Assembly: GCA_950295325.1 (NCBI GenBank)
Contig: OX485803.1
Location: forward strand, 20,152,001 to 20,216,000
Origin: Polytrichum commune
Taxonomy: Eukaryota; Streptophyta; Polytrichopsida; Polytrichales; Polytrichaceae
DNA length: 64,000 nt
Direction: 5' to 3'
Below the pieces are notes generated by a model, which saw only the letters and a list, made by a program, of their open reading frames with translations, ran no database searches and was not told where the DNA came from. Positions 48,713-64,000 of this stretch are shown here, piece by piece (position 1 is the stretch's first letter; each line of letters opens with the position of its first letter). A program made the position numbers and the translations under genes.

Positions 48713-48911
48713 TGTAAATCTTTGGCATGGCAGAGCTTCAAGTAGTTTGCAGAGGAGCCACTAATGGCTCAAGAATGGCACCGAATTTTCCTCCACAGCA
48801 ATGTTTTGTTGATGTAGTTCTAGTTTCATCATTGCAGCAATTTGTAATGATGGTAGTTGTCATGTGCAAGCATCTGGTAGCACAAGTGGGCGTGTGAAGA
48901 AGGGGTTCAAC

Positions 48912-50411
48912 ATGTCCACGCCATGGAGGCAATGTTCTCTACTGGCACTGCGGATCTTGCACGCACGGCATGCACTCTCAGCATGCAATCCCTTGCATCA
49001 TGTGGAATTCCATCGAACAATATTCTCACCTCCTTCTCCGAGTAGGTTTGTGGTGTGGGAGCATCATTCGTTAATTAGGAGCGTTGGTTTAGGGTTAAGT
49101 GGAGATGGCAAATCACATGAGTTCTGTAGCTTCGCAGCTACAGAGATGGATATGGATTCGGATGTGGCAGATGTGACAGACATGCCAGATATTTTCAATC
49201 TGTCAAAGGCGGATTTGAATGCCAGTTACCAGTTTCTGAGAAGTTTGGGATTGAAGAAGGACAAGCTCTCGAAGTTGGTATCAAAGTGTCCTGCAGTTCT
49301 GTGCAGGACATTCGAAGATGGCATGGTGTCACTTACACAAAGTTTGACTGCCATAGGACTTCCGGATCATCTCGCATGTCGCATACTCGAGAAGAATCCA
49401 AACCTGGTTCGACGTATCTTAAAGAGAAATCTCTTTGTTGAGAATCTGACATACTTGACTGATTGTGGATTAAACGCGAAGCAGCTTGAGAGAGTTGTGA
49501 GAATTTACCCTCAGTGTCTCGGGGCCAGCAAAGAACTCCAGCTGAAGCCTACGGTAGAGTTTCTTATTAAACTTGGGGTAACTAAAGAGAAGCTTGGGAA
49601 GGTTATTTCATTGTCACCATATTATTTAGGATACCGTCATGCCATCTCGTTGATGCCTAAAGTGGTATATCTCATCAAGGTTGGAGTGAAGGAGGAGCAT
49701 CTGGGAAAATTGATCATGGAGCAGCCAAGCATTTTGTGTTTAAGTGTGAAGGAGAATATTATGCCTAAGCTGAGCTATTTGGAGTCTGTTGGTGTGGAGA
49801 GTGATCGTGTTGGAGAGATGATATCCAGGTGCCCTGCTATGTTAACCTCCAACATGAACACCTTGAAGACGAAGGTGGAATATCTGAGGAAAAGTGGTTT
49901 GACTGGTAAGAATCTTGTTAGCCTTCTCACATTGCACCCAGATCTTCTTGGAAGATCATTGAAGTCTCTGAGCTTGGGATTCTCGAACCTGCGAAGCATG
50001 GGATTCACTGAGGATGAGGTGTGTGAGATTTTGAAGCGGCATCCCACAGCACTTAGTAGTACTGTAATACATCTGCGTAACAAGTTTGATTTCCTCACCA
50101 AGGTCATGAATCGGTCGGAAAAGGAGGTGTTGAAGTTCACTGCATTTGTGACATATAGCTTAGAAAAGAGGATTAAACCTCGACATCGCGTGTTCACATG
50201 GCTTATGTCGGAGGGCTTGCTTCCACAAAAGAATTACTCTCTTCGAACCATTGTTGGTGGTTCTGAGGAGTACTTTAGGAACAGGTTTGTGGGTTTGCAC
50301 CCAGCTGCTGAAGCTATGTACAAGGAGCACTTACTGGCGGCAAATATGGCAGCTGAGACAAAATTGATTGAATTACACGAAAAAAATATGATTGATCTAC
50401 ATGGGACGTGA
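48912..50411 (+). CDS. mTERF-family organellar protein, 499 aa, intronless
   Basis: One uninterrupted frame from ATG (MSTPWRQCSLL) to TGA. The N-terminus is rich in Arg, Ser and hydrophobics with few acids, consistent with a plastid or mitochondrial presequence. From about residue 100 to 430 there are repeated units of about 35 residues of the form LxxLGLxxxxLxxLVxxxPxxL (for example FLRSLGLKKDKLSKLV, FLIKLGVTKEKLGKVI, YLESVGVESDRVGEMI). These are mTERF helical repeats, which bind organellar nucleic acids and affect transcription, splicing or ribosome assembly. Lack of introns is common in plant mTERFs. An in-frame GTG lies 48 nt upstream, but ATG is preferred. The particular mTERF subgroup cannot be told. 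Confidence 0.92.
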   Translation: MSTPWRQCSLLALRILHARHALSACNPLHHVEFHRTIFSPPSPSRFVVWEHHSLIRSVGLGLSGDGKSHEFCSFAATEMDMDSDVADVTDMPDIFNLSKADLNASYQFLRSLGLKKDKLSKLVSKCPAVLCRTFEDGMVSLTQSLTAIGLPDHLACRILEKNPNLVRRILKRNLFVENLTYLTDCGLNAKQLERVVRIYPQCLGASKELQLKPTVEFLIKLGVTKEKLGKVISLSPYYLGYRHAISLMPKVVYLIKVGVKEEHLGKLIMEQPSILCLSVKENIMPKLSYLESVGVESDRVGEMISRCPAMLTSNMNTLKTKVEYLRKSGLTGKNLVSLLTLHPDLLGRSLKSLSLGFSNLRSMGFTEDEVCEILKRHPTALSSTVIHLRNKFDFLTKVMNRSEKEVLKFTAFVTYSLEKRIKPRHRVFTWLMSEGLLPQKNYSLRTIVGGSEEYFRNRFVGLHPAAEAMYKEHLLAANMAAETKLIELHEKNMIDLHGT

Positions 50412-55694: not shown

Positions 55695-56243
55695 TGTCGT
55701 GTAAATACCGATCGTGTGTCACTGCAGCTCGAGTACCAACCACCACTAACAAACAACACTAAAACATAGCAAGGTCACACATGAACAACACATATCGACA
55801 GAGAAGGAAGAGAGTAGAACACTCATAATAGCTCTAAATCTCTTTTCAAATGCACACAATTAGTCAAATTATCTCTCACTCCACCAAGGGAGAATCCAAG
55901 AGTGTAAGTAAAGGGAGAAGAACTTAAAATTTATTGCAAAATCATGCAATCTACACCTCACACAAGCTCTCTCCATATACTAACTCACAAGACTTGACTT
56001 GGCAAGAATGCCAAGTCAAGGAGGAGGCTCCTCACTTAGGAACCTTACTTTCCAAAACTAAGGTTCATCCATCCAACTCTAAATGGATGAAGCCCAACAG
56101 ATAAGGTGCGGCCGCCGACGCCGCATACCGTGATAGCTGTCGTGTAAATACCGATCATGTGTCACTCCAGCTCGAGTACCAACTACCACTAACAAACAAC
56201 ACTAAAACATAGCAAGGTCACACATGAACAACACCTCTCGACA
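55695..56243 (-). mobile_element. Probable 3' LTR of the Ty3/gypsy element, with 106-bp terminal direct repeats
   Basis: On the minus strand, TGTCGAGAGG begins directly after a purine tract (AAGGGGGGCA, 56244-56253) that fits a polypurine tract. The proposed LTR closes with TTACACGACA at 55695, giving TG...CA ends with TGTCG/CGACA symmetry. Oddly, the same 106-bp unit occurs at both ends (56138-56243 and 55695-55800). The LTR could be 549 bp with an internal duplication, or one LTR of about 443 bp joined to a fragment of a second. The 5' LTR is outside the window. Confidence 0.55.
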
Positions 56244-56989
56244 TGCCCCCCTTAGCTGACTATGGAGTCCCGCTAAGCAGCTAGGACCAATGTCAATCCA
56301 AGGGTATGGATAATGACGGATTGCTCCGCAACCAACTAGCGTGGCGAACGTCATCCCAAGAAACTGTAGGCTAGGTGCAATGTGAGCCCCATCCTTAATC
56401 GCCTCTCATGGTTGGCCATCATATTCCACATAATTAATTTCACCGTGTGAGGCCAAACCCACCACCCTTAAGCGTCCTAGTCCGGGTGATGGCTTTGAGA
56501 ATCACATTCAATTCCTAATACCATAATGTGAATTGCTATATGGCTCTCATGTCCGAGGTACTAACTTCATCTCAACTCAACTTGCTTTGTTATTGTGAGC
56601 ATCGTTGCTCGTAGTGGAATTTGATTTCTCAAGGGTCCAACCCGCGGCCTTGGCCACACATGCCCTTAAAGAGATCCCTCTAGGCTTCTTGATTTTTACT
56701 TCCTTTATCTTGTCCTTGCTAGGATCCTCCACATTCTCCATTAATTGTGCACGTGATTTATTCCAACCAAAGAGTACGAGTGTTTAAAAACACTTACCTC
56801 AATGGGTAACCACCAACACATTCAAAAGTCACACACACTTCTACTTTCCTAATGAATCCAACTTTACCTAAAAACCAAGATGGCATGAAAAAATCTAGTA
56901 TGGTCTAGCAATCCCGCAAGGGATTAGCCTAACTACCAACCCCATAGTAGCCTAACTTATTAAGGCTAACGAACTAACTTAAGCCCAAC

Positions 56990-57360
56990 AGAAATACAGT
57001 CTAGTAGCTCAACTCCTTGGCCTTGGCCCAGCAGAAATACAGTCCAGCAGCTCAGCTCCTTGGCCTTAGCCTAGTAGAAATACAGTCCAGCAGCTCAGCT
57101 CCTTGGCCTTGGCCCAGCAGAAATACAGTCCAGCAGCTCAGCTCCTTGGCCTTGGCCCAGCAGAAATACAGTTCAGCAGCTCAGCTCCTTGGCCTTGGCC
57201 CAGCAGAAATACAGTCCAGCAGCCCAACTGCCTTGGCCTTGGCCCAGCAGAAATACAGTCCAGCAGCCCAGCTGCCGTGGCCTTGGCCCAACAGAAATAC
57301 AGTCCAGCAGCTCAGCTCCTTGGCCTTGGCCCAGCAGAAATACAGTCCAACAGCCTTGGC
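56990..57360. repeat. 43-bp minisatellite, about nine units, in the retroelement 3' region
   Basis: AGAAATACAGTCCAGCAGCT recurs at 56990, 57033, 57076, 57119, 57162, 57205, 57248, 57291 and 57334, a constant 43-bp period. The rest of each unit reads CAGCTCCTTGGCCTTGGCCC with minor variants. Forty-three is not a multiple of three, so the repetitive open frames on both strands are artefacts. Confidence 0.95.
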
Positions 57361-58154
57361 TGCCCTTAATACAACCCCTTTCATCCACTAATAAAAGGTT
57401 TTCTAAATTCTTCTTTTCTTTTCTTTCCTTTGCTTCTAAGTCATGAACTAATCTAACACACTACTTTCACTAACTACCACCTAATCACTACATGCAATCT
57501 TAAGCTCTAAGAGCTCACTCACTTGGGAGGCCTTGAGAGAGAGAGCTTAACTAATTAACTTCACTAAAACTAATAACCCACACACGTGGCTCAAGCTCTT
57601 AAGAGCTTGCTCCCTTGAGAGCGCTTGATGGAGAGAGAGGTAAATGAGAGAAAAAACACCTTAAGTAGCAAAGAGGGAGAGAGGGAGAGAGGGAGAGAGA
57701 GGTGAGGATAGGGTGAGAGGATTAACACCTCCAATCACAATCCCTTAACCTTCACCTCCAAAGTAGGGACTAATCCCCATCTACCAAGTTTCCTTCTTCC
57801 TAAACTAACAAGGTGGATCCAAAAGTAGGCATTTAACCCGCGGAGCTCACCTTGCTTCACCTTACCCCCTACTCACATTATCAAGGCATACTCTTATTGA
57901 AATCAAACCTTGAAATAATTACACAACACCACCTAATGCCTAAAGTTGAATCCACACCACTCTTCATTCTTTTTATGTTTTGTGAATAATCATAATACAT
58001 CAAAGTCAAACTAAAATTGGTTTCGAAGAGTTAATCACCACATGTGGGCATCATTTTGGGCTCACACACCGCCTCATGTCGATTGCGTCTCTAAGCCATA
58101 ACTCCTCATCTTCCATTTGGGCAGGCACAAGATGATGAAAAACACACATGATCA

Positions 58155-59333
58155 TTAAGTACGATTGGTGGGAGTACCAAGTACCGAAGATCCTCGACAG
58201 CGAGGACAACTCCACTATCCAGATGGTAGAGAAGTCAAGGGTGGCCTCAAGCATGCCATGTGCCAACCACGTTGACACTGATTACACAAGAGCATAGTAG
58301 CCGCTCATTTCTTCTCTTCACACACAAAACATGGAAGACCCTCTAGCACGACGGCCAGTTCAGGATGACCTGTACCTTCAATGGGTAAATGACATGGGAC
58401 ACAGTTTTTGGAATGCTCGCGACATTCCCTGCCATCCTTGCCTTCCAACAATAACAAACCACTCGGCAACACCTCCTTTACCCGAAGGATAGTGCGCCCC
58501 ACCCTGACATCCAATGTCGTAGGCGCCTCACGTTGAAGTTAAACATAATCCCCTTGTTGAAATCTCCGCAACTGAGGTCGGTAAGCACCACTGCGAATGC
58601 GTGCATAACGCAATTTGTCACGGTGCTGAGCAATGGACAAATTCTCCATGGCCATAGGCATGGCTCTCTGGAAGAATTGAGTCCGCTTCTGCAAACACTC
58701 TGTCCAAATGTTTGGGTCATCCAAGTCCACAACAAGAGCTAACTTTTCCCGAATAGAACTCGGGAGAATAGGCTCACATCCATACAATAACTGATACGGT
58801 CTGCAGGATGTCAAAGAGGCATGCTTACTAAATCGATAGCCCATAGCAATCCAATGCAACATAAGGTCCCAATCCCGGTGGCTTTCCCGAAGTAATCCAT
58901 ACTTCCTCAAGCCACGTTTGGTTGTCTGAACAACCCGTTCAGCCAAGCCATCTGCCTCCGGACGATCCACTTGCTAAAATGCTCCACCATCACCAACACG
59001 TACTTTGCGCCACGTGATGTAACAACCAACGGCCCTACAAAGTCCAGTGACCAACGGTAGCCCAATCCCATAATAGGTAAGGGTTGTAACTGAGGTGACA
59101 AGGTGTTAAAGCTAGACCTAACCCGGTCACAAACTTCACATCTCCCGACATAAGCAGCCACCTGCTGATACATGCCAATCCACCAATATTGGCCACGCAA
59201 CATCGAATGTGTCCTGCGTATGCCAAAATGGCCCAGTTCCTCGTGCACTTGTCGCACCAAGGAGGCCCTCTGATCCGGCCTAGGAACAATACGCCTTGTC
59301 CCATCCAGCCACAATCAAAATAACAAACCGTTC
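58155..59333 (-). pseudogene. Ty3/gypsy integrase with C-terminal PHD finger, decayed
   Basis: The N-terminal zinc motif (HEELGHFGIRRTHSML ... CEVCDRV) and the first core block (LDFVGPLVVTSRGAKYV) end near 58970, where about 50 or more codons, including the central catalytic Asp, are missing and the frame shifts. The core resumes at ADGLAERVVQT. A small beta domain (RVGRTILRVKEV) follows, then a PHD finger at about 58190-58345: CFVC, LCNQC, GWHMAC and CPRC, a full C4HC3 set. Stops: TGA 59315-59317, TAA 58539-58541, TGA 58305-58307, TAG 58215-58217. The frame ends at TAA 58155-58157. Integrase inserts the cDNA; PHD fingers commonly read histone H3 tails. Confidence 0.85.
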
Positions 59334-59581
59334 TCCCAACGGAACCTTGTTATTCGATGTCCAATCCTATCCCTTTCCATTGCTGAAATAAACAAAGGAA
59401 AGGTACAATATTGAAGATTATGCAATACGGGAAGATCCTCCCATATATCCGCAATAGCTTGAGGCCGATCAGTCTCATCATCTGAGCCCTGTATCGGAAT
59501 CTCAACAGATGTACCAGAAAATAAAGTGAGGTAAGCAGCCGCGTGCCAACCTGGAACCGCCTCTCGATCACAATCTCCATG

Positions 59582-60346
59582 TCACTTGGCCCCGGTCAAG
59601 TCCTCATCCAAAGGACTTGGATTGCGTGAGAGTCCATCTGCATCCAAGTTGGTAATCCTAGCACGGTGTACCACCTCAAAGTCATACTCCTGGAGCAACA
59701 AAGCCCACCTGGCAAGCTTGCCAGTAAGCTTATCCGACTCCATGAGCTACCGTAACGGCTGATGGTCAATCACTAAAGTAAAGTGCTTACCATAAAGATA
59801 CGGCCGAAAATGAGCAATAGCCCATACCGCCGCCAATGCTTCTTCCTCGTAGGATGAATAATTAGCCTCCGCCGTGTTATTGCTTTGCGAAGCGTAAGCA
59901 ACAACATACTCCCGGCCAAAATCATCCTTCTGAGTGAGAACTGCTCCCAAACCCAATGAACTCCAATCCGTATGCAACTGGAAGGATTTGGAAACATCCG
60001 GACGTCGAAGCACTGGAGCCGCACCCAATTTCTGCTTCAATGTCTCAAAGGCCTGTTGCTGCTCACGACCCCAAGTCCAAAGTTGGTCCTTGCTCGTGAG
60101 AATGGTAAGATACTTGGCGATCAAGCTAAAGTTCTTGACGAATCGACGATAGTAATTCGCCAAGCCCAAGAAAGCACGAAGTCTCAGTACATCGACCGGT
60201 GCCGGGATCTTCTGCAAGGCGTCTACCTTAGCTTGTTGCACCCCAAAACCTCCTGGAATAATCATATGACCTAGATATGCTAGTCGGTCATGAAAAAACT
60301 TGCACTTCCTATGGTGCAAGCGCAATCCCCACCGCCGTAATCGCTA
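59582..60346 (-). pseudogene. Ty3/gypsy RT thumb/connection and RNase H
   Basis: The frame contains HHRKCKFF, FLGLANYYRRFV (the classic gypsy connection motif), and RNase H signatures HTDWSSLGLGAVLTQ, YSSYEEEALAAVWAI and VIDHQPLR. These supply the acidic catalytic residues that degrade the RNA strand of the RNA-DNA hybrid. In-frame stops: TAG 60344-60346, TAG 59747-59749 where the family usually has Trp, and TGA 59582-59584. It is in the same ancestral frame as the integrase N-terminal part. Confidence 0.9.
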
Positions 60347-61102
60347 AAAAACGGCTTGAAGATGCTTTACATGCTCTTGTGGTGTTTTGCTGAAAATGAT
60401 TACGTCATCAATGTAACACCGAGCAAAAGGCAAGCCAAAGAGAACTTGGTCCATCATTCTCTGAAACTCAGCAAGCGCATTTTTAGGCCAAATGAAAGAA
60501 ACTTCCAATGGTATAGTTGATCCTTTCTATTATGATCAACTCCCCAAAATGCGGTCTTCACCCGATCTCCCGTAAGTAATGGAAGTTGGTAATATCCGGA
60601 TCTCAAGTCCAATGTGCTAAAGACCCGAGAGAATCCGATGGCATCGAACAACTCCTCCGGGATTGGCATGGAATACCGATCCGACTTGGTCTTCCGATTA
60701 ATTGGACGGTAATCCCCACACATCCGTTTCTCCGTCCAATTGCCAAAGATATCATTCTTTGATGGCATAACCGTAGCACAAGCATACTCCCCGTTGGAAA
60801 GTTCAATTAGCCATGTTGCCAAGAGCTCTCGGTAACGAGCCTGAACGCCAATCCGCTCGGAAACACTGAGCCTGTAAGGTCTTCGAAAAATGGGATGGTC
60901 GTCCTCCAACTGAATGTGGATGGGTTTTCCTTTATAACCTTTAAGATCTTGAAGGCTAAAAGCAAAACACCTACAGTACGAGTGAATAAATGCTCGTACC
61001 TTCCGTGCCTTAGCACCAGTGAGATGAGGGCCTAATTCCAATGGCCAATCATCAAACTCTGTAGTCTCCCTCTCTACCAAAGGAGAACCACTTGATGCTG
61101 GC
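60347..61102 (-). pseudogene. Ty3/gypsy reverse transcriptase core, frameshifted
   Basis: Motifs in order: PIFRRPYRLS, ATVMPSKND, CGDYRPINRKT, FSTLDLRSGYYQ (first catalytic Asp) and FLSFGLK. Then a one-base loss in an A-run near 60484 shifts the frame, after which [12 protein letters not shown] supplies the YxDD active site. The upstream end joins the methyltransferase region in the same frame once the 410-bp insert at 61103-61512 is discounted. The copy cannot make an intact enzyme. Confidence 0.9.
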
Positions 61103-61512
61103 CACGGGGAGGTCACTCCATTGTCAAGTTGAAAACCACGTGTGAACAAAGTTTGCTACCCCTATATTATATGCCATAGATAATTTTTAAAATTATGATG
61201 TTTTTTCTATATATACATATCCATTGATAATATGTTTTGTATATTTTTTGAAACTTTTAGTCATCCCCATTTTTTCCAGTAATTTTTTTAGTTCAATTCT
61301 GCGTCATTCTAGTTAGAAACGGTATGTTTTCTAGAAATTTTTTTTTATCAAATTTGGTTATCCATTTTTACTATGTAATAGATACCATGTATATGTACTC
61401 ATAATTTTTTTTTGATAAAAGTTTGACCCATTTTGTTGATGCAACTTAGAAAAAGTATATATTTTTTGTTTGCACGTGGTTTTCAACTTGACAATGGAGT
61501 GACCTCCCCGTG
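61103..61512. mobile_element. hAT-like MITE inserted in the gypsy polyprotein frame
   Basis: The left end CACGGGGAGGTCACTCCATT and right end AATGGAGTGACCTCCCCGTG are inverted repeats extending about 40 bp to CCACGTG/CACGTGG. A perfect 8-bp direct duplication ATGCTGGC flanks it (61095-61102 and 61513-61520). The interior is AT-rich and non-coding. Eight-base target duplication with CA..GGG ends suits hAT elements; P-type is an alternative. Confidence 0.85.
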
Positions 61513-61534
61513 ATGCTGGCACAGACTCTAATTG

Positions 61535-62860
61535 CTAATGAGAGGAGGGGACATTAACTATGCCCCCAATCTCGGTGCTAGTACTAGAGTCTGATATTTC
61601 TTCATCACCACCAATATGTGATGATGAAGCCACCACCGGAGGCGAAGAAACCAAAACACTGTAAAAATGTTGAGCTCGAAGCTCCTCCATCACATGCTGC
61701 TCGAATTGAGAAATTCGTTCGGCTTCTCCAATTATGGCGTGAATTCCCTCCTCCATGGGTGTGGACCGATGTGCCTCCTGACCAGAGTCCTCTGCCCCCA
61801 GAGACAAGCACTGGTCACCATGATGCCTTTGCAATGAAAGGCATAAAGCAACAGTCCACACCATGGTATGAAGATCCATAGCTTGGCCCAACACGAAGCG
61901 CCGTTGGCCCTCAGAAAGGCCGGGAGTTGCGGTGGTGCCAGTGCGGAATCCCATGGCACGCTCCCGTTCGTCAGCCAATGGTTTGGTGTGGGTTTTGGTG
62001 TGAACATCCCACACCATACCCGGCCCTCTATTGCGGAAAGCAAATGACTGTGGAAACGTCATAAATGTGGGAAATGCCCGCCGTGGTGCCCCCATTTTAT
62101 TGACCAATGCCAACGAGGGTAAATCATCTCGAACAACCGGCAAAGAAGTCCGGTTTGGATCCAAGATGTCATCCACCTTTTGATCAAAAGGTAGAGGCAC
62201 TGCAGAAAATGCTGCAGCTAAAGTAGATGACGGTGCGAGGTTGGTCCAAATCCACCGAGGCCGGTGGGCATAAGAACCAATGCTCGCGGCATCCACAAAA
62301 ATGGGATCGCCAAGGTGTTGACGAACATAATAATCGCCTTCCAACACCTTGTCCCGAGAGTCTCCCAACAAAGGTACATTCTCAAAAATATACCCTGGAG
62401 GGAAAGGTTGGTGGGAATACCACCACTGCATGAGGCGGATGAGGTCCCAAAATAGAGTAGACCTGGGATCCTCTAGTCCTCCGCCTGCTCCAGCACGTGA
62501 ATGGCCCTGGCATGGCCATCCCGCAATCATCATATCTACCGGACCTAAGTGTCGTAAGTCGGCCTCATTGATGAGTGTGACATCACGAGGGAGACGTGAA
62601 AAATACCCACGAATGGCAGTCGGGTGTAACTGCTATGGGTACAACACCATCAACCGGTGAAGATGATGACGAGCCGCACGGGTGGACACTGGAGAGTTGT
62701 CCACGTAGACATATCGGTTGACCGTAAGGCTAGCCTCCAATACGGCTGCCAAACTTGTGCCAATGCCCCCAAACAGCTCCACCAAAGTAATTCCATTGTC
62801 TGGAGGACGCCACAAAATGGGGCGTGCCAACGTGGATAGACTATCCGATATGACTGGTGT
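61535..62860 (-). pseudogene. Retrotransposon-encoded cytosine-5 DNA methyltransferase
   Basis: The conserved C5-methyltransferase motifs occur in order. Motif I is ITLVELFGGIGTSLAAVLEA (AdoMet site), then an acidic YVDNS. Motif IV is GWPCQGHSRAG with the catalytic Cys in a PCQ context. Motif VI is ENV, motif VIII is RPRWIWTN, a motif-IX-like block is ADERERAMGF, and motif X is GQAMDLHTMVW. The enzyme would transfer methyl from AdoMet to C5 of cytosine. It sits between protease and RT in the same frame as both. One in-frame TAG (62633-62635) lies between motifs I and IV, and a second TAG (61535-61537) ends the open frame. All motifs survive, so decay is recent. It is distinct from host MET1/CMT/DRM layouts, as no BAH, chromo or UBA domain is visible. 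Confidence 0.9.
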
Positions 62861-62896
62861 GGTAGAACTGAGAGAGAGGACAATGTCATCACACCT

Positions 62897-64000
62897 TTAG
62901 AACAAACCAACTGAATCACGCCACGGAGGTAGAGGGTCCTTGGGATGGCGTACTAAGGCCCTCCTAAGTGCCATATCCAGTGAGTCTTCAACATCCCCCA
63001 TGAATGCCAAAGACTCCTCCAATAATGCGGATCCATAAGGCAATGTATCCACAATAGCACTGCATCTGAAAACCATGGATAATGGTTCGATGGTGGCGGC
63101 CGCTGCGAAGGCCACATGAATAAGTTCCCTATGGCCGTCTCTAGCTAACCAACCTGGTCGGATCCAAGCTTCCTCAGTCCAGTTGTCCAAACCAAAACCG
63201 AGAGGGTAAAGTGTTTGCTGACCAACTAAAATGTCATAGTTGGTTGCATCCGTTACTGCACACCTAAGAAGAAGAGGTGCGGGTGGATCTCCAGGCTTCA
63301 CTCGGAAGCTTAGCTGTAAAGGCTCCCGAGTATAACTAGTGGCCCGCTCCACGTGGCCAATAGATGTGACGATGGTAAATGGGCAAGGAGCCAAGTCGTC
63401 GGCCGTCAACCGCAATTCCTGCGCAAGCTTCTTGCCGATCATAACAGGTTGTGCTCCTGAATCCATCATCACACACTGGGGAGCAACTCGAATAGGGTTG
63501 CCCCCAACCCGACTGACCATTAAAATGCCGGAATCATTCACCATCCGTACAACGCCACGTCGAATGCCTCGACGCGCGCGAGCAGGTCGAGCAGCTACAT
63601 CTGAAAGGTAAGTTGCGCCTGCGGAGGCTAGTGAATCATAAGATGAGGTTGGCTCTTGGCCATCCGAGGCGTGTGCGTCAAAAGACGCAATGGCCTCCGC
63701 CGCAAGCCTCGCCCGCCGTTTGGCGGCTTTCTCAGGATCCTCCGTGGTAGGAAGGTCAGTGGTTGCTTGAGCCACAGTCAGAGAAGATGGTGTTCCCTTC
63801 TCTTCCAAAATCCTACATGCTAGGTGAAAAACCTTAGCTGGTTGGATATTGGATGACGACCACTCCATTGCCGTGAACAAAGGGGTGTGCAACATTTTGG
63901 ATGCCAAAGTATGCACCACGTCGGTCGCCAGATTCGAAGACTCCAAATTCGAAGTACGATTACTGATAGATTGGGCAGCATCAGCCAATTCAAAAGACAA
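62897..64000 (-). CDS. Ty3/gypsy Gag-side/aspartic protease frame, partial at window edge
   Basis: 367 residues run in from beyond the window. The N-terminal part is Ala/Arg-rich (DPEKAAKRRARLAAEA, RPARARRGIRRGVV). The middle has a retropepsin-like site MMDSGAQPVMIG (DSGA) and a later hydrophobic NYDILVGQQTLY block, as in gypsy proteases that mature the polyprotein. It ends at TAA 62897-62899, after which the same frame continues into the methyltransferase, so the stop is probably a mutation or marks a domain boundary. No zinc knuckle was seen in the visible part. Confidence 0.8.
   Translation of the reverse strand: MSFELADAAQSISNRTSNLESSNLATDVVHTLASKMLHTPLFTAMEWSSSNIQPAKVFHLACRILEEKGTPSSLTVAQATTDLPTTEDPEKAAKRRARLAAEAIASFDAHASDGQEPTSSYDSLASAGATYLSDVAARPARARRGIRRGVVRMVNDSGILMVSRVGGNPIRVAPQCVMMDSGAQPVMIGKKLAQELRLTADDLAPCPFTIVTSIGHVERATSYTREPLQLSFRVKPGDPPAPLLLRCAVTDATNYDILVGQQTLYPLGFGLDNWTEEAWIRPGWLARDGHRELIHVAFAAAATIEPLSMVFRCSAIVDTLPYGSALLEESLAFMGDVEDSLDMALRRALVRHPKDPLPPWRDSVGLF

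Follow-up and report, generated by a model that had tools for sequence, protein, structure and literature searches.

Retrotransposons with their own DNA methyltransferases

Cytosine methylation is a main mark for transposon silencing in plants. Retrotransposons that encode a cytosine methyltransferase (MTase) have been described as KnitGypsy-Dnmt3 in Klebsormidium nitens and as the Dnmt elements of Symbiodinium (PMC5890265), so that a Gypsy element with a DNMT3 is already known from a charophyte, and the charophyte and dinoflagellate precedents named in an earlier note on the DNA studied here are real. According to the legend of Fig. 4 in that paper, KnitGypsy has DIRS-like repeats but Gypsy domains. 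Its MTase was placed in yeast, where no methylation was seen, a result called inconclusive by the authors; for SymbioLINE the same paper suggests methylation of RNA, and it discusses host-wide effects. In its passages on the subject, PMC12344493 repeats just the streptophyte and dinoflagellate cases. A literature search by titles and abstracts, with few subscription journals and preprints among its sources, found no land-plant retrotransposon with a DNA methyltransferase, and none is reported in the portions consulted of PMC12344493, PMC6338049, PMC6317226, PMC9033089 and PMC6453930; in the survey of plant LTR elements among these (PMC6317226), the words "methyltransferase" and "PHD" are absent from the main text.

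The element described below was found in a window (the whole stretch of 64,000 nucleotides that was analysed) from a 407.8-Mb assembly of 64 contigs, with ~406 Mb in C1-C7; eight of the smaller contigs measure 17.5 to 147 kb. The genome had been called land-plant-like; that it is a streptophyte is supported by a host DRM gene, since DRM is restricted to streptophytes in the account of PMC12344493, and a land plant is likely, short of proof. Seven large contigs and 408 Mb would suit a moss of the haircap type, and a flowering plant is possible. The window also holds an mTERF-family gene in a single ORF (48864-50411; PF02536, 1.3e-63) and pieces of receptor kinases.

The methyltransferase domain of the window copy

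A C5-cytosine MTase domain and the C-terminal tail of a Gag-protease-MTase ORF occupy 61535..62830 on the minus strand, the strand of all element parts given here, as placed by PF00145 and by motif reading. The window ORF matches PF00145 (DNA_methylase) at E 3.2e-9, with 37.1 bits against a cut-off of 22, and the NCBIfam dcm profile at 1.5e-9, yet with 37.9 bits this second match lies below its cut-off of 100.65. At 62815-61841 the domain is 88.9% identical over 325 aa to that of a family copy with both frames unbroken, L026. The motifs follow in order through 62902-61535: I (LVELFGGIGTS), IV (GWPCQGHS), VI (YIFENV), VIII (HRPRWIWTNL), a IX-like motif and an X-like RFVLGQAMD, in the usual C5-MTase numbering. 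The Pro-Cys-Gln codons of motif IV, with the catalytic Cys, lie at 62507..62515 and were located from a 332-aa ORF (MMIAGWPCQG). Chance is excluded as the source of the resemblance by the profile E-values together with the recurrence of the domain in 14 of 15 copies that were picked by their reverse transcriptase (RT), not by their MTase.

The earlier note had proposed a Ty3/gypsy element with its own C5-MTase, listed motifs I, IV, VI, VIII, IX-like and X, and named Pfam as the check. The profile match above its cut-off, inside a gypsy order of domains, bears out the enzyme and the element, and each listed motif can be read. Two particulars need amendment. The MTase was placed in frame between protease and RT: the frame is as stated, but the parts do not form a single ORF, as a shared TAG at 61535-61537 divides them into two consecutive ORFs. 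The domain itself is there, but it is not intact in the window: a single premature stop interrupts the stretch from motif I to motif IV, at 62633-62635.

A dead copy of a young family

The window element runs well beyond the span first noted, from ~55695 to ~C1:20217181, past the end of the window, and no 5' end was found in the 4.5 kb past it. Ahead of the MTase is an aspartic protease domain (DSGAQ; 63314..63481) that PF13975/PF13650 detect at E 0.005, under their curated cut-offs; the protease of another unbroken copy, L021, gives E 0.00016, just under the cut-off (22.8 vs 24.3 bits). The common in-frame stop, TAG followed by CAATTA, spans 61529..61537. Some 20 bp from it a MITE of 409 bp has inserted later (61102..61510, no strand assigned), with 48-nt inverted arms that are 96% complementary and 9-bp duplications, tgatgctgg, at 61093-61101 and 61511-61519; it interrupts the element homology and parts the MTase from the RT. 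The N-terminal part of ORF2 follows as a degraded RT (60454..61101; RVT_1 E 3.6e-5, 24 bits, below 29.6), and then the RT C-terminus with RNase H (59747..60325; RT_RNaseH_2 1.2e-35), an integrase with H2C2 zinc finger and DDE core (58539..59314; Integrase_H2C2 3.7e-18, rve 0.0014) that has lost ~177 bp internally by comparison with a family copy, and a degraded PHD finger at the integrase C-terminus (58198..58331) that is matched over its full length, has two stops and has ends judged by eye. A second insertion of ~1.6 kb (56446..58066, no strand assigned) again interrupts the homology and contains 8.6 copies of a 43-bp minisatellite (56983-57354). The terminal repeats B1 (56137..56243), A2 (55801..56133) and B2 (55695..55800), the last being the 3' end of the element, are 91.6%, 92.2% and 94.3% identical to the respective repeats of L026. 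Observed/expected CpG is 0.74 in the element (58067-64000) vs 0.48 in window positions 1-54000. The window copy is a dead fossil, while the family is young and large.

The size of the family was approached by genome searches with PF00145 (best 123 of 353 candidates scored) and with the L026 MTase (best 123 of 591). Joined, the two lists give at least 182 distinct MTase loci, one of them the host DRM gene; the remaining count of at least 181 is taken from lists in which fragments of one broken copy might count twice, and the true number of MTase loci is likely above 182. The 20 copies fetched are the top of the PF00145 list. With the window they fall into subfamily A (L026, L011, L013, L023 and the window copy) and subfamily B (L021, L020, L024 and others). 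Both frames are unbroken in L026 and L021, with an ORF1 of 1366 or 1386 aa and an ORF2 of 1048 or 1047 aa, and 14 of the 123 rows of the L026 MTase list lie in a frame that reaches 1360 aa or more, with no stop inside the match. Two degenerate MTase loci, C6:10279708-10280679 and C4:34125730-34126701, are 72% identical to L026 and possibly belong to an older third subfamily. L023 and L027 (C2:55.01-55.03 Mb), members of different subfamilies, lie ~10 kb apart in opposite orientation.

An RT search (best 150 of 2256 candidates scored) provides a view of the family that does not start from the MTase. Among these 150 best matches, an MTase lies at most 5 kb upstream of the RT in 75 by the first list and in 98 by both lists, and in 61 of the 75 first-list pairs the spacing rounds to 1380 or 1430 nt. 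Every fifth of the 75 RT places that lacked a first-list MTase was then read directly (n=15): 14 have the MTase, partial in two (L063, and L070 with the last quarter only), and L067 is the sole one without it. Nine of the 15 are absent from both MTase lists, and eight of those nine have the domain. By these counts the MTase is a standing part of the family and not an isolated acquisition; a one-off insertion, the outcome that the earlier note had named as refuting, is ruled out by the 14 read places and the 98 listed ones, as is an assembly chimera, and the collection of copies also brought to light some with unbroken frames.

Selection and age

Intactness was scored as coverage of a domain to 90% without a stop in 21 sequences (the 20 copies and the window); the MTase domain is intact in 10 of them, as is the RT domain in 10. 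Median NG86 dN/dS between subfamilies is 0.105 for the MTase and 0.036 for the RT (24 pairs each, with dS saturated), 0.031 for the integrase and 0.115 for the PHD finger (dS saturated or non-computable in some pairs); within subfamilies the MTase values are higher, at 0.22 and 0.34. Uncorrected pN/pS between L026 and L021 is 0.32 for the MTase (bootstrap 0.26-0.39) and 0.29 for the protease, and is 0.59 for the linker before the MTase and 0.68 for the tail after it. When the relative L059, described below, is included, the three cross pairs give 0.24-0.32 for the MTase, 0.25-0.29 for the protease and 0.44-0.59 for the linker, the tail being represented by its one pair at 0.68. Judged by these ratios, the MTase is under purifying selection, the answer to the dN/dS comparison proposed at the outset. 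Zero substitutions separate repeats A1 and A2 in 2 of 13 copies, L026 (334 bp) and L020 (437 bp, with one gap column), and the greatest divergence among the 13 is K 0.043, in L015; by this measure the family is young and was recently active.

The common stop codon

The order of parts across the family is Gag - protease - MTase - UAG - RT - RNase H - integrase - PHD. A single TAG divides ORF1 from ORF2, which are in the same frame, and because ORF1 ends at this TAG after the MTase, the MTase belongs to the Gag-protease side. The stop is followed by CARYYA in all 20 fetched copies, in the window and in L059, the hexamer taking three forms, CAATTA, CAGTTA and CAATCA; the residues around the stop vary between subfamilies, while the hexamer pattern is kept. 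UAG-CARYYA is given in PMC3542737 as the leaky-stop consensus of the tobamovirus type. On this motif we infer that the UAG is leaky, with readthrough into ORF2.

Terminal repeats and integration

Pfam finds in L026 and L021 the protease-RT-RNase H-integrase order of Ty3/gypsy, with the protease under its cut-off, and among solved structures L026 ORF2 matches Ty3-G Gag-Pol best (3.1e-101). The ends of the element are less conventional. Repeat anatomy was examined in 18 sequences, with L010, L012 and L019 outside this set; a simple identical LTR at both ends was found in none of the 18. In 13 of them the arrangement is A-internal-B-A-B and in three (L021, L018, L009) A-internal-B, where A measures 334 or 438 bp, B ~107 bp and the element ends are TGTC...GACA. 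In L026, and there only, a purine tract was seen ahead of B1. Of the 16 copies that allow the measurement, 14 have 4-bp target duplications flanking the outer ends; a script found 13 of these, and L028, where it had picked a chance GACA, was read by eye. In L015 and L025 the duplications agree at 3 of 4 bases, and the count leaves out L014, which is rearranged, and the window copy with its missing 5' end. L014 has inverted duplications of its A and B repeats and is perhaps a product of autointegration. At the joint between B and A, 12 of 13 copies read GACA-GC-TGTC, and L015 has TATC.

A classical DIRS element is ruled out by the rve DDE integrase and the 4-bp duplications, and no match to a tyrosine recombinase was found by Pfam in L026 or L021. 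As read from the sequence, the target duplications show that the DIRS-like repeats are here products of an integrase. Judging by the purine tract in L026, reverse transcription would yield a conventional LTR made up of B+A. The integrase presumably works on circular cDNA that has been opened where B meets A, so that circles with two LTRs would leave A-internal-B-A-B and those with one LTR A-internal-B. The shorter form could also come from recombination of B1 with B2.

The PHD finger of ORF2

The C-terminus of ORF2 is a PHD finger (PF00628, 1.4e-10 in L026 and 2.4e-10 in L021) that resembles those of CHD4, PHF12, Lid, ATXR5 and UHRF1. It is unbroken in 13 of the 21 sequences and missing in L010 and L012, in which homology ends earlier. 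The finger may read chromatin. The chromodomain that marks chromoviruses at the integrase C-terminus was not matched by Pfam in L026 or L021.

What kind of enzyme, and from where

A profile of ten element MTases finds DNMT3A as its best match among solved structures (E 7.7e-14), next DNMT3B/C, and further DRM (1.7e-7), HaeIII (8.9e-7) and HhaI (8.3e-6). No DNMT1 label occurs among the 49 chains matched at 0.001. Past motif VIII the DNMT3A match is non-significant, the second domain scoring below zero bits, though PHROG family 116, a family of MTases, extends to residue 1252 of L026 ORF1 (match over 948-1252, 5.5e-21). The ten aligned copies, picked out of 21 for an unbroken domain, all agree in PCQ, in ENV and in the motif VIII PRW, and the order of motifs I to X is non-rearranged. 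By profile similarity, then, the element enzyme is of the DNMT3 type, with PCQ in motif IV vs PCN in DNMT3A and in the host DRM. This PCQ, the loss of significance past motif VIII, the PHROG match, and the phage matches and tree given below speak against a plain DNMT3 label. An AlphaFold2 model from a three-row alignment reached a mean pLDDT of 36. The host DRM, L075 (C2:4699800-4706200), has its motifs rearranged over two open stretches, VI-IX in the first and X-I-IV in the second, and is 24-25% identical to the element MTase over ~130 residues of the motif I-IV part; both features rule out that the element took its MTase recently from this gene.

That the domain came from a DNMT3-like enzyme of a prokaryote or a virus, and not from a plant gene, is a possibility that we hold at somewhat under even chances and that is compatible with each reading of function given below. 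The distance from the host DRM would suit such a source. In BLASTP, phage enzymes do about as well as DNMT3A (best 77 vs 66 bits); and the motif IV PCQ of the element is also that of phage HTVC309P. Set against this, the solved-structure profile puts DNMT3A/B far above HaeIII and HhaI. The MTase tree, which had been suggested as a check and was built, joins the element, phage MTases and animal DNMT3 in a single polytomy; it includes no plant DNMT3, and the viral rows L052 and L053 were dropped beforehand. A scan of viral contigs yielded six distant MTases among 26 candidate stretches. L054-L058 are cytosine methylases of phages, and the enzyme of the Microcystis phage MaeS among these matches DNMT3C best (4.8e-26, solved structures).

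A relative in another assembly

One relative, L059, was found among 23 candidate stretches of the GTDB collection, on contig CADCWO010000201.1, filed under an uncultured Synechococcales cyanobacterium, isolate AVDCRST_MAG81. Its 3972 bases follow the family order, from the last part of Gag through protease, MTase and TAG-CAATCA into RT; it is 66% identical to L026 in the MTase and 85-86% in the first 400 aa of ORF2. From this content it is best explained as a mis-binned eukaryotic contig in a cyanobacterial bin. The AVDCRST isolates presumably come from soil crusts, and a crust moss or alga is a possible source. In the MTase tree L059 groups with subfamily B (93/93, not starred), and its place inside that subfamily implies that the split between A and B is old or that elements have crossed between species.

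A model for the methyltransferase and its alternatives

The reading that we regard as probable is that of an autonomous, recently active Ty3/gypsy family in which the replication proteins include a DNMT3-type MTase, supplied through a leaky stop to the particle. Most translation would stop at the UAG after Gag, protease and MTase, and a minority reading through would add Pol. The protease would release an MTase made in Gag quantities and packaged in every particle, where it may methylate the cDNA of the element itself, either ahead of integration or as it occurs. New copies would thus carry a "self" or quiet mark from the moment of their arrival, with less damage to the host and with cDNA shielded from responses to foreign DNA, and the PHD finger may tether the integrase to nucleosomes. 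More doubtful is a fuller combination, with a Gag-level MTase that pre-methylates cDNA, a PHD finger that steers the integrase to particular histone states, and circular cDNA opened at the B|A joint (GACA-GC-TGTC), the last of which would account for copies of both forms, A-internal-B-A-B and A-internal-B, with proper target duplications.

The Gag-side position of the MTase would also suit a domain that is kept but no longer methylates DNA and that instead, within the Gag protein, binds RNA or cDNA or methylates RNA. The fading of the solved-structure match past motif VIII agrees with this, as do the RNA methylation proposed for SymbioLINE and the absence of DNA activity for KnitGypsy in PMC5890265; binding alone, on the other hand, would need none of PCQ, ENV and PRW, all invariant in the ten unbroken domains, and we consider this reading rather unlikely. 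Less likely still is an enzyme acting in trans on the host genome, for example in restraint of the family or of rival elements: at least 181 listed loci with putative Gag-level expression would permit it and host-wide effects are among the matters discussed in PMC5890265, but the sequence gives it no support, and CpG observed/expected stands at 0.71-0.78 in five copies vs 0.48 in window positions 1-54000, a contrast of little weight between regions that differ in coding content. The heavily broken state of the window copy, and nothing more, could be cited for an MTase placed there by chance insertion or chimeric assembly, a notion of negligible probability when the domain recurs in RT-chosen copies and in L059, the element of another organism.

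If the probable reading holds, with the MTase in the particle, the element may write the very mark with which its host silences it, and here a young, abundant family has such an MTase as a standing part. Whether a parasite profits from writing the silencing mark itself becomes testable with this family and, if the host is a bryophyte, accessible in plants for which genetic tools are well developed. The Gag-side position predicts an enzyme in every particle, a prediction that is not met with in the sections of PMC5890265 on these elements.

Comparison with known systems

The stop codon resembles that of the tobamovirus replicase in its UAG-CARYYA motif, as defined in PMC3542737; it differs in standing between Gag-protease-MTase and the RT of a retrotransposon, where its leakiness is predicted from the motif. 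With chromoviruses, as characterized in PMC3605345, the family has in common a Ty3/gypsy body with a chromatin-reader type of module at the integrase C-terminus, but theirs is a chromodomain and here a PHD finger takes its place. SymbioDIRS-Dnmt3 and SymbioLINE-Dnmt are likewise retrotransposons with a captured C5-MTase; by the account in PMC5890265 they are a DIRS element with a tyrosine recombinase and a LINE, whereas the present element has a DDE integrase and target duplications.

The closest known system is KnitGypsy-Dnmt3 of Klebsormidium, set beside the family by its description in PMC5890265. On that description the two are alike in the Gypsy domain set, in an intronless, non-rearranged MTase of the DNMT3 type, in the DIRS-like arrangement of repeats, in purifying selection and in the presence of several copies. 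They seem to differ in that the KnitGypsy MTase is described as part of the Pol polyprotein ORF, whereas here it lies in ORF1 with Gag and protease and would be joined to Pol by readthrough alone; a PHD finger, unmentioned in the description of KnitGypsy, is encoded here. Within the literature searched, what is new is probably the presence of such a family, large and young, in what is likely a land plant and, as far as sequence can speak, an MTase placed with Gag ahead of a UAG of the leaky type, the PHD finger, and target duplications that tie DIRS-like repeats to an integrase.
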